Source: Pirellulaceae bacterium
GTDB taxonomy: Bacteria > Planctomycetota > Planctomycetia > Pirellulales > Pirellulaceae
Length of the DNA: 64,000 nucleotides
Direction of reading: 5' to 3'
Assembly: GCA_026004775.1 (NCBI GenBank)
Contig: BPJU01000006.1
Coordinates: 62,001 to 126,000, forward strand
Notes under the pieces: generated by a model
The model's database searches: none
The model's input: only the letters and a program-made list of their open reading frames with translations
Told to the model about the DNA's origin: nothing
Shown: positions 36,403-40,263 of the stretch, in pieces
How the letters are laid out: every line of letters begins with the position of its first letter
Numbering within the stretch: position 1 is the stretch's first letter
Made by a program: the position numbers and the translations under genes

Positions 36403-38283
36403 ATGGCAGCGGATCATGGCAGTGCACTGGCGAGCGGCCCGGCGAACGAAGGGACGTATCAGGTTGTCGCTCGGCGTTACCGGCCACGTGGATTCGATGA
36501 GCTGGTTGGCCAGGCGCCCGTCGCGCAAGCTCTTCGCAACGCGATTGTTTCGAACCGAGTCGGACATGCCTATCTTTTCACGGGGGCAAGAGGGGTCGGC
36601 AAAACGTCTACGGCCCGCATCTTTGCCAAAGCATTGAACTGCGTGAACGGTCCCACCGTACAACCCGACAACACCTGTGACATATGCCGGGGTATTGATG
36701 CGGGCGAGGACATGGACGTGTTGGAGATCGACGGAGCCAGCAACCGCGGCATTGAAGAGATTCGGCATTTACGGGCGACGATCCATATCCGTCCGTCCCG
36801 AGCTCGTTACAAGATCTACATCATCGACGAAGTGCACATGCTGACGCTGGCTGCCTTCAATGCGTTATTGAAAACGTTGGAGGAACCGCCAGACCACGTG
36901 AAGTTTATTTTCTGTACGACGGACCCGGAAAAAATTCCTGTTACGGTTCTGTCGCGTTGCCAGCGTTATGATTTTGCTCCGATTGATTCCGTTCAGATTG
37001 TTGAGCGGTTACGGTACATCGTGCAGCAAGAGGGCCGGCAGGTCGAGGATCAGGTGCTCGACGAACTGGCTCGCCGCGCCAAAGGGTCGATGCGCGACAG
37101 CCAGTCGTTGCTCGAGCAGTTGCTGGCGTTTGGCGGCGAGCAGATCTCGCTCAACGATCTGCACTCGCTGCTGGGTACGGCCGACGTAACTGCCGTGCGA
37201 CGCTTGGCGTCGGCGTTGTTGGCACGCCGTCCGGCGGAGGTTCTGGCCGAACTGGATGCGGCGTTGCATGCCGGTGCCGAGCCGGGGCATCTGGCCGAAC
37301 AGTTGTTGAGTTGGTTCCGTGACATGTTGGTGGCGGCTCTGGGAGCGCCGGTGTCACTGGCTACCATGGCCGATAGTGCGGTCTGGGGCGAACTGGCAGA
37401 CCAGGGCCGACAAGCCGGCAGTGAAACGTTGCTGGCGATCCTGCAGATTCTGGATCAGGCCCTGGTGCGGATGCGGCAGAGCACTTATTCCCGCCTCCTG
37501 CTGGAAATGGCACTGTTGCGGGTCAGCATGTTGCCGAACCTGCTGGACCTGGCGGCTCTGGTGGAATCGTTGTCCGTGTCGGGCGGCTCTTCTTCACCGA
37601 ACGCGGCTTCAGCCGAAGCCCAGCCCACCATCCGGCCGGCCGCATCGGGCCATGCGCCGGCATCGGTGGCCCAAGCGCCCCAAGAAGGCGTATCGTCGCG
37701 TCAAAAAAAAAGCCCCGATAGCGCGGCACCGCCCGGGGTAGGCTCCGATAGCAGTCCGCAAGTCCCCAGCGGCTCAGCTTCGGCATGCAACTCGGATCCA
37801 GCTTCGTTGCCCTCGCCCCCGAGGACTCCTGCGGATACGCTGCAGGGCGGCACAACGAGCCAGACGACCGGCAACGGCGAATCGCTCGAGCCGGAGGTGG
37901 CGGCTGATGCGCTGTGGCGGCAGGCGGCTCAAACCATCGGTGGCCTTTTCGGTTCGATGATGGATTCGGCGGCTGAGGTTCGATGGTCGAGTCCCGAAAG
38001 CATGGTGGTCACGTTTCGAACCGACGCACGGGCCGCGGCAGAACAAGTGAGTCGCCCGGACAAAAGAGCTCAGATTGAAAAGACTCTCGAATCCCTGGCG
38101 AAGCGACCGGTTCGTGTCCAGGTCGAGCATCGGGAGGAGGGGCCCGTGACCCCCGCGCGCCCGGCGGTCTCCACTTCCCCACTGCAAGCCGCAGCCCGTG
38201 ATCCATGGGTGCGTCGAGCTATCGAGTTGTTCGATGCCGAAGTGGTCCGCGTGATCGGTCCGACGCCCGATCGATCTTCGTGA
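36403..38283 (+). CDS. dnaX: DNA polymerase III subunit tau/gamma DnaX
   Basis: DnaX is the clamp-loader motor and polymerase organiser of the replisome. The 626-residue product has YRPRGFDELVGQAPVAQAL, Walker A GARGVGKTSTARIFAKALNC, the zinc module Cys residues (CVNG...CDIC), Walker B YIIDEVHMLT, and sensor 1 with FIFCTTDPEKIPVTVLSRCQR, followed by collar helices to about 370. The rest is a low-complexity linker and a tau-type C-terminal domain. A run of nine A at 37703-37711 at the linker start, with stops soon after in both alternative frames, would produce a short gamma form (see separate entry). The start follows a weak purine-rich site. Confidence 0.96.
   Translation: MAADHGSALASGPANEGTYQVVARRYRPRGFDELVGQAPVAQALRNAIVSNRVGHAYLFTGARGVGKTSTARIFAKALNCVNGPTVQPDNTCDICRGIDAGEDMDVLEIDGASNRGIEEIRHLRATIHIRPSRARYKIYIIDEVHMLTLAAFNALLKTLEEPPDHVKFIFCTTDPEKIPVTVLSRCQRYDFAPIDSVQIVERLRYIVQQEGRQVEDQVLDELARRAKGSMRDSQSLLEQLLAFGGEQISLNDLHSLLGTADVTAVRRLASALLARRPAEVLAELDAALHAGAEPGHLAEQLLSWFRDMLVAALGAPVSLATMADSAVWGELADQGRQAGSETLLAILQILDQALVRMRQSTYSRLLLEMALLRVSMLPNLLDLAALVESLSVSGGSSSPNAASAEAQPTIRPAASGHAPASVAQAPQEGVSSRQKKSPDSAAPPGVGSDSSPQVPSGSASACNSDPASLPSPPRTPADTLQGGTTSQTTGNGESLEPEVAADALWRQAAQTIGGLFGSMMDSAAEVRWSSPESMVVTFRTDARAAAEQVSRPDKRAQIEKTLESLAKRPVRVQVEHREEGPVTPARPAVSTSPLQAAARDPWVRRAIELFDAEVVRVIGPTPDRSS
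37703..37721 (+). promoter_or_regulatory. A9 slippage site in dnaX, likely tau/gamma switch
   Basis: In-frame codons are CAA AAA AAA AGC. A -1 shift gives AAA AAA AAG CCC CGA TAG, ending at 37721; a +1 shift reaches TAG at 37739-37741. CCCCG just after the run can pair with CGGGG at about 37734-37738, giving a possible stimulatory stem. In E. coli, ribosomal -1 frameshifting at A AAA AAG makes gamma; in Thermus thermophilus a nine-A run in dnaX does so by transcriptional slippage. Either route here would give a protein of about 437 residues. Confidence 0.75.
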
Positions 38284-38464: not shown

Positions 38465-40123
38465 ATGGCGGCCAGCATGAGGCTTTCCTTCAGTCTTGAT
38501 CAACGGCAAATACAAAAACAGATCCAGACGCTGGCTCCCCGCATGATCCAGTCGATGGAGATTCTCCAGTTGCCGATACTGGAGCTCCAGGAGCGTATCG
38601 AGCAGGAATTGACGGAGAATCCGGTGTTGGAGGTTGTCGAGGAGGAGCCGGAGGAGGACGAGCCGGTTGTATTGGAAAATCCGAACTTGCCGACCGAAGA
38701 TGAAAAGCCTTTAGTGGTGAAAGCCGACGGTAACAATGCGGAGGATTTCGAGCGGCTGTCGAATCTGGACGAGGAGATTCCGGAGGCATTTGACGATTCA
38801 CCGCGTCCTTCGGTGAATCGGCTGGAGGAGGAGGCCGATCGGCAACACGACTTGATGGCCAACTTGCCGGACAGGCCACCCTCGCTGCAAGACTATTTGC
38901 TCGAGCAGTTGCGGGACATGGAGGTCGCGCCGGATGTAGCGGAAATTGCCGAGAGAATTATTTCGACGCTGGATGCTCGAGACGGCGGCTATTTCCGCGG
39001 CAGCCTGCACGACCTGGTACCTCGCGAGGCGGGACCGCAGGGGCTGGAAAAAGCCAAACAGGCGCTGGCCATCGTTCAGAAGATGGAGCCGCGTGGCGTC
39101 GGGGCTCGAGACCTTCGCGAGTGCCTGTTGCTTCAGTTGACTCCCGACATGCCTTACTACCGCGAGCTGAAACTGCTCATCAGCAATCATTTGGAGGACT
39201 TGCGGGACAATCGGATTCAGGCCATCGCGGCAGCGACGAAGTTGGATATTCCGACGATCTATGCGGCCTGGGAGCAGCTACGGAGGCTCAATCCGCGTCC
39301 GGCGGCTCAATTTGCCGAGGAATTCACGCCGGTCGTCGTTCCGGACCTGTATTTGGAAGTGGGCGAAGACGGCAAGTACCAGCTTCGCCTGGAGGATGAT
39401 CAACTGCCGAGCTTGCGGATCAGCGAATACTATCGGCGCCGGCTTCAGGACGGTACGGCGACACCGGAAGAGCGGGAGTTCATCAAGCGCAAGATCAACT
39501 CGGCCAACTGGCTGATTGAAGCGATCGAGCAGCGGCGAAACACGCTCCTGAAGGTGGCTCAGGCGATCGTCGAGCACCAGTGGAAATTTCTCGAATATGG
39601 GCCGGAATATATCGAGCCGCTCAAGATGCAGCAGATCGCTGACAAGGTGGGCGTCCATGTGACCACCGTCAGTCGCGCAGTGGATGACAAGTGGATCCAA
39701 ACCCCGCGCGGGTTGTTTCCGTTGCGCCGGTTTTTCGTCGGGGGTACGCGCAGCTACGACGGTGAGGATGTGGCGTGGGATGTGATCCGCGTCAAACTTC
39801 AGGAGATTATCGACCACGAGGACAAGAGCAACCCGCTCAGCGACGACAACCTGGTCAAGGAACTGGCCAAGCACGGTTTGAAGGTGGCTCGGCGCACTGT
39901 GACCAAGTATCGCCAGAAGATGGGTATTCCCACGGCCCGCCAGCGAAAGCAGTGGCTGCCCGTGGAACGGACCGACGATGGGCCCAATGGGGCTGCCGCC
40001 GGCGACTCTGAACCTCAACAGCCTGACGTCGACTTGTCCGATGACGGGCCGAATGGCGACGCCTCCGTGCAGGATGTATCGTCGCTGGCAGCCCGCGTAG
40101 ACAATCCAGCAGGGGAACAGTAA
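38465..40123 (+). CDS. rpoN: RNA polymerase sigma-54 factor RpoN
   Basis: RpoN directs RNA polymerase to -24/-12 promoters, opened by AAA+ activators. The 552-residue product has the Gln-rich region I (LAPRMIQSMEILQLPILELQ), an acidic region II (about 55-110), the core-binding domain, the helix-turn-helix (ADKVGVHVTTVSRAVDDKW) and the RpoN box KVARRTVTKYRQKMGIP. A disordered acidic tail of about 50 residues after the box is unusual. An alternative ATG lies four codons downstream at Met5. No lptB or hpf neighbours are seen. Confidence 0.96.
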   Translation: MAASMRLSFSLDQRQIQKQIQTLAPRMIQSMEILQLPILELQERIEQELTENPVLEVVEEEPEEDEPVVLENPNLPTEDEKPLVVKADGNNAEDFERLSNLDEEIPEAFDDSPRPSVNRLEEEADRQHDLMANLPDRPPSLQDYLLEQLRDMEVAPDVAEIAERIISTLDARDGGYFRGSLHDLVPREAGPQGLEKAKQALAIVQKMEPRGVGARDLRECLLLQLTPDMPYYRELKLLISNHLEDLRDNRIQAIAAATKLDIPTIYAAWEQLRRLNPRPAAQFAEEFTPVVVPDLYLEVGEDGKYQLRLEDDQLPSLRISEYYRRRLQDGTATPEEREFIKRKINSANWLIEAIEQRRNTLLKVAQAIVEHQWKFLEYGPEYIEPLKMQQIADKVGVHVTTVSRAVDDKWIQTPRGLFPLRRFFVGGTRSYDGEDVAWDVIRVKLQEIIDHEDKSNPLSDDNLVKELAKHGLKVARRTVTKYRQKMGIPTARQRKQWLPVERTDDGPNGAAAGDSEPQQPDVDLSDDGPNGDASVQDVSSLAARVDNPAGEQ

Positions 40124-40190: not shown

Positions 40191-40263
40191 GGGGCGGTAG
40201 CTCAGTTGGGAGAGCGTGGCGTTCGCAATGCCAAGGTCGAGGGTTCGAATCCCTTCCGCTCCA
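40191..40263 (+). tRNA. tRNA-Ala (anticodon CGC)
   Basis: A complete cloverleaf is seen: acceptor GGGGCGG/CCGCTCC with the alanine-identity G3-U70 pair, D stem GCTC/GAGC, anticodon stem TGGCG/TGCCA with loop TTCGCAA (anticodon CGC), and T arm GAGGG-TTCGAAT-CCCTT. The discriminator is A, and the 3' CCA is not encoded. It marks the change from core genes to the repeat-rich accessory region that begins directly after it. Confidence 0.95.

Follow-up and report, generated by a model that had tools for sequence, protein, structure and literature searches.

The dnaX gene and its run of nine adenines

The window, i.e., the whole stretch of 64,000 nucleotides that we analysed, carries on its forward strand the gene of the clamp-loader subunit, dnaX (36403–38283), whose frame 0 encodes the full-length tau in a single open reading frame of 626 aa. 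The protein matched the TIGR02397 (dnaX_nterm) profile with 424.3 bits (cut-off of 250), as well as the Pfam profiles for the delta2/ATPase, lid and domain III regions. A run of nine adenines (A9) occupies positions 37703–37711 of the same strand, exactly to the base where the initial annotation had put it, and is read in frame 0 as CAA AAA AAA AGC. Since the collar (Pfam domain III) ends at residue 388 and the first A of the run belongs to codon 434, this candidate slippage site lies in the linker, about 45 residues beyond the collar. Downstream, the linker and the C-terminal domain (37712–38280, forward strand) form the tau-only part, which would be absent from gamma; it lies past Pfam domain III, and its C-terminal part aligns with relatives. 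Frame 0 stays open for 190 codons beyond the run, which places the gene outside the two-ORF class of GeneTack, where frame 0 ends at the site.

Two TAG codons of the forward strand follow the run, at 37719–37721 in the -1 frame and at 37739–37741 in the +1 frame, as had been annotated. The first would terminate gamma in transcripts with one additional A (A10, 439 aa) or two fewer (A7, 438 aa), the second in those with one A fewer (A8, 445 aa) or two more (A11, 446 aa). The predicted masses are 66.9 kDa for tau, 47.4 kDa for a gamma with the C-terminus RQKKKPR (from an added A or a ribosomal -1 shift) and 48.0 kDa for one with APIARHRPG (+1 frame), which a ribosomal -1 shift would not be expected to give. 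No other run of A or T in the whole window reaches nine, and the genome encodes both tRNA-Lys(UUU) and tRNA-Lys(CUU). Directly 3' of dnaX, an ORF (38465–40123) resembles sigma-54 (rpoN), judging from its translation alone, and a tRNA-Ala with the anticodon CGC is found at 40191–40263.

Conservation of the run in relatives

The dnaX genes of relatives were taken from 60 genomes that share the window's family or order (its own included, none of the others being of the same genus), from a phylum search of 119 genomes (the window's included) and from 80 named loci. The final set comprised 72 distinct genes: 57 of the order (window included), five of the class and 10 named. The phylum search provided the five class loci and, from 103 genomes, a further 104 loci, with 10 genomes left out; the core match was incomplete in 10 of these further loci, leaving 94 readable. 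Eleven of the named loci were used as Planctomycetia-like on the basis of title or similarity (the titles of L003, L006, L007 and L026 say no more than "Planctomycetota bacterium"), which gave 10 after removal of the one duplicate. Before counting we dropped L006 (which duplicates L130), L139 and L140 (a single gene on two contigs), L141 (a 5' fragment of the gene of L138), G023 (no match) and G058 (a weak paralogue match only). We kept L137 and L138, which lack the 5' part of the gene, and counted both L172 and L173, whose sequences hardly differ at the site.

Past the conserved core, the longest A run had nine A in 34 of the 72 genes, 10 in 28, and three to six in the remaining 10 (L086, L087, L096, L100, L106, L120, L132, L135, L003 and L005); none of the 72 genes of the order and class had a longest run of seven, eight or more than 10. 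The core parts of the same genes (86 kb) contained no A run longer than seven, and the longest T run past the core, found in one of the 72 genes, had eight T. This pattern is far beyond chance. The initial annotation had proposed conservation in relatives as a check of the slippage reading, which withstood it: 62 of 72 genes, related to each other and thus not independent events, have nine or 10 A, and 10 of 72 lack the run. Slippage-made gamma is therefore not indispensable. In a single FastTree of the DnaX cores, in which 69 of the 72 genes were placed and the named entries nearest to the window were Candidatus Anammoximicrobium and Aporhodopirellula (L004, with A10), a Fitch count reconstructed the run as ancestral in the set, with eight changes. 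Given these neighbours, we treat the window as a probable member of Pirellulales.

The runs lie in the linker, 23 to 79 residues beyond the counterpart of residue 375, and occur in all three phases (phase 1 in 33 genes, phase 2 in 24, phase 0 in five). One might suppose that the run is a neutral relic or serves the protein by encoding a Lys-Lys patch in the linker, with no important gamma in either case, and the 10 relatives that manage without it are consistent with this. We regard it as very improbable. A lysine patch would accept AAG, the codon of 607 of the 1135 lysines outside the run in the same genes, and would not account for the lack of genes with seven or eight A; a relic would vary in length and would leave unexplained the strong enrichment of stops in both frames described below. 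Moreover, the residues flanking the run have a pairwise identity of only ~0.1, and Lys-Lys is missing from the corresponding linker stretch of all 10 run-less genes, which together suggest that the A run itself, not a lysine pair, is kept. The latter check replaced a calculation on lysine codons (138 full codons within runs, all AAA, log10 P of -53.6), which we dropped as circular: only pure A counted as a run, which by construction also gives an identity of 1.0 at both lysine positions.

Elsewhere in the phylum sample the run is uncommon. By hand count, 8 of the 94 readable loci had an A run of at least nine past the core, and some of these are AT-rich genes or carry the run far from the linker (L243). 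The exception to the rest of the phylum sample is a Phycisphaerales-like order, described below, in which the run is common. In the literature that we searched (open-licence papers, without supplements), the class-wide conservation has not been described; the available part of the GeneTack study counts two Planctomycetes genomes and names no planctomycete dnaX (PMC3711429).

Stop codons in the shifted frames

A stop codon was found within 15 codons of the run in the -1 frame of all 62 run-bearing genes and in the +1 frame of 57; both frames were closed in 57/62, a count that likewise comes from related genes rather than independent events. At comparison positions elsewhere downstream in the run-bearing genes, the corresponding frequencies were 40% (-1), 41% (+1) and 17.8% (both); the run-less genes gave 26%, 37% and 13.1%. 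The median distance to the stop was three codons in either frame, against 21 and 21 at the comparison positions. Local base composition was considered as the source of these stops and rejected by a permutation of the first 15 full codons 3' of the run, which preserves that composition: both stops were observed in 53 of the 62 genes, against a mean of 18.1 and a maximum of 30 in the permutations, and none of 1000 trials matched the observation. Both the length of the run and the stops in the two shifted frames show signs of selection.

These stops, together with the conservation of the run, strongly support the earlier proposal that one gene would give gamma and tau by slippage at the A run. 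Gamma could also arise by proteolysis of tau, the run being incidental, in favour of which there is only a precedent, in Caulobacter (as given in the accessible text of PMC5009743). Proteolysis leaves both the run lengths and the stops in the two frames unexplained, and we consider it scarcely credible.

Probable slippage, at transcription or at translation

The initial annotation had left open two routes to gamma, ribosomal -1 frameshifting as in Escherichia coli and transcriptional slippage as in Thermus. Our results favour the second: judging from sequence features, A9 is likely to be a site of programmed transcriptional slippage like that of Thermus dnaX. At the run, RNA polymerase would add or drop A residues and produce a mixed population of mRNAs. 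Those with nine or 12 A would be translated into tau (626 or 627 aa), and those with other numbers would run into one of the two nearby TAGs, giving gamma-like proteins of 438–446 aa (a small correction to the ~437 residues first expected) that would keep the ATPase and collar domains and lose the linker and the C-terminal domain. We infer that slippage occurs, that its level is transcriptional and not translational, and that gamma is made and used.

The window resembles Thermus thermophilus dnaX in having a run of at least nine A past the ATPase and collar parts (nine A on the sense strand in Thermus), near stops in both other frames and tau in one ORF; the run lies about two-thirds through the coding sequence in the window and reportedly seven-eighths through in Thermus (available parts of PMC1088944 and PMC5009743). 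In the planctomycetes the sequence pattern extends across a class of mostly GC-rich genomes; mRNAs with varying numbers of A and a gamma:tau ratio of ~1:1 belong to the Thermus model. For a large share of genomes, PMC1088944 places at nine the length from which selection against runs can be seen.

A -1 shift by the ribosome requires a heptamer and a stop in the -1 frame, but neither nine or more A nor a stop in the +1 frame. Any A9, that of the window included, contains A_AAA_AAA in frame, and the -1 stop is present within 15 codons in 62/62 genes, so that gamma might be made at translation, either by -1 frameshifting of the E. coli dnaX type or by ribosomes sliding on poly(A), a process treated in PMC4363877 (available part). 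In the text available, the GeneTack authors likewise allow for either level at poly-A sites, dnaX among them (PMC3711429). On balance we consider a translational origin unlikely. Runs of seven or eight A could hold the heptamer, yet they are absent, and stops in the +1 frame, useless to a -1 shift, are about as enriched as those in the -1 frame. Sliding of ribosomes in both directions would escape the latter objection.

The window shares with E. coli dnaX a tau encoded in frame 0, a gamma made by shifting into a near -1 stop, and an A-rich site. It differs in the heptamer (A_AAA_AAA instead of A_AAA_AAG), in the enrichment of the +1 stop and in the presence of two tRNA-Lys; the set of run-bearing genes further differs in lacking an enrichment of Shine-Dalgarno-like motifs and a conserved stem-loop. 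A_AAA_AAG does not occur in frame at the window's site and was in frame 0 in seven of the 62 run-bearing genes (a plain count, with no background set). No Shine-Dalgarno-like motif was found 5–18 bases before the run in the window, and in the set such motifs preceded the run in 7/62 genes, against a background of 10.4%, i.e., without enrichment. The available text of PMC5009743 connects two lysine tRNAs with the use of polymerase slippage in Thermus; the presence of both in the window's genome therefore favours transcriptional slippage.

The initial annotation had also pointed to a CCCCG/CGGGG stem just downstream of the run (37713–37738, forward strand; arms at 37713–37717 and 37734–37738). 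The arms can indeed pair, but the fold is unexceptional relative to dinucleotide shuffles (z of -1.32 over 30 nt and 0.00 over 45 nt), leaves almost no spacer after the run and is not conserved in the 62 genes. Hence, this possible stem is probably not functional. Among these genes we found no conserved fold 3' of the run over 45 nt (mean z of -0.29, control of -0.07); the 45 nt upstream had a mean z of -0.13, and the 60 nt downstream one of -0.45, slightly better than shuffles in a comparison made without a 60-nt control. By the same measure, E. coli dnaX scored -1.74 over 45 nt and -0.03 over 60 nt. The 45-nt measure can therefore detect real stimulators, as indicated by E. coli dnaX and by the family f30 described below (mean z of -2.39 vs -0.13).

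Thus, runs of only nine or 10 A, the comparable enrichment of +1 and -1 stops, the low count of A_AAA_AAG, Shine-Dalgarno-like motifs at background level and the lack of a conserved downstream structure all favour the Thermus type.

Inverted dnaX genes in a Phycisphaerales-like order

We searched 41 genomes of the order in which the run is common and read the 30 loci of best matches, five of which (L263, L264, L254, L258 and L259) repeat genomes of the phylum sample. We call the order Phycisphaerales-like because L254 lies close to L048 and L081, two named Phycisphaerales, in the DnaX tree. Frame 0 was long in 18 of these best-match loci, 15 of them with A9–10 and three with A7 or A8. In the other 12 (L362, L364–L366, L368, L369, L371, L376, L377 and L381–L383) it was short (393–415 aa), its stop lying 0–8 codons past A_AAA_AAN, G_GGA_AAA or a longer A run. 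A profile of the tau C-terminus, built from Planctomycetia, matched the -1 frame in seven of the 12 and the +1 frame in one (L366), with no match at E 0.05 in L377 and L381–L383. The tau end likewise lies in the -1 frame in the named L048 and L081.

These relatives appear to have an inverted form of the gene, in which gamma would be the product of frame 0 and tau would come from a shift (into the +1 frame in L366). Inverted poly-A dnaX genes are already known from GeneTack (PMC3711429, available part). Its two-ORF genes, whose tau needs recoding, resemble the dnaX of the window in where the poly-A site lies within the gene; they differ in that tau is encoded in frame 0 in the window, and the two-ORF forms occur in its relatives. 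Two further loci deserve mention. The metagenome-assembled Opitutaceae L082 has the same inverted look, but its sequence did not match the tau profile. In L239 (1–2401), frame 0 ends at 380 aa, a tau-like C-terminus lies in the +1 frame and an ATG soon follows the stop; this is perhaps a split gene.

A different candidate cassette in the family f30

In f30, a family of the phylum, we searched 23 genomes, of which 21 had any match, and obtained 19 dnaX loci, 18 of them readable (L278–L294 and L296). In the 17 readable loci whose 5' end is complete (all but the truncated L296), frame 0 ended at 397–411 aa. In 18/18 the stop came 0–4 codons after NNC CCN (16 CCY and two CCG), and the -1 frame stayed open for 60–232 codons. 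The tau C-terminal profile (E ≤0.05) matched this frame, and no other, in 16 of the 18 loci, with no match in L278 and L291. Examples of the cassette are found at L285:1390–1446, L281:2641–2697 and L291:1179–1235.

A GC-rich hairpin follows at 3–6 nt from the CCN codon (in the fold, the initial 3 nt were constrained to be unpaired), its outermost helix having only two to three pairs in L279, L280, L283 and L287. The 45 nt after the stop folded with z values from -6.04 to +0.76 (mean of -2.39), at or below -2 in 11 of the 18 loci and above -1.2 in seven. Both sides had changed in three of the five consensus pairs, in an alignment that is imperfect where the distance from stop to hairpin varies, and the outer helix included GC, CG, AT and TA pairs, which were taken from each sequence's own fold and are hence biased towards pairing. 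The cassette looks like a -1 ribosomal site that would make tau. Measurements in E. coli given in the accessible part of PMC4066793 show C_CC.Y to be one of the tetramers prone to shifting, with low efficiency. Our limited literature search returned no description of such a cassette in dnaX, which is apparently new, in a comparison that covered in detail 12 of the 17 GeneTack dnaX genes without poly-A.

A possible turnover of the recoding mechanism

Taken together, these loci make it somewhat probable that within one phylum a two-product dnaX has been kept while its recoding mechanism turned over among three forms. In the first, with tau as the default, polymerase slippage would act at A9–10 (Planctomycetia and part of the Phycisphaerales-like order). 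In the second, the inverted form of the same order, gamma would be the default and the shift would take place at A_AAA_AAN, G_GGA_AAA or longer A runs. The third would be the new -1 ribosomal cassette of f30, with C_CCN, a stop after 0–4 codons, a GC-rich hairpin and tau as the shift product.

This kind of slippage in dnaX is already known; what merits further attention is its conservation across a class, the pattern of nine A, 10 A or nothing and the apparent turnover of mechanisms. Bacterial housekeeping genes that normally yield two proteins through transcriptional slippage are known from few cases, with Thermus dnaX as the model. If our reading is correct, a large bacterial group with cultured members has long used such slippage, its natural losses would serve as controls, and both the purpose of gamma and the reason for a run length of nine or 10 would become testable. 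Relatives with a swapped default or another shift site would then be natural experiments on selection for the gamma:tau ratio.

Long runs also occur elsewhere in the window's genome (6.14 Mb in 30 contigs), where AAAAAAAAA had 26 overlapping matches on both strands, which collapse by position to 18 separate runs. Runs of nine to 10 A or T lie within stop-to-stop open frames of ~400–690 aa at L161 (C13:126375), L159 (C9:124835) and L149 (C1:240091), which are possible further slippage genes.
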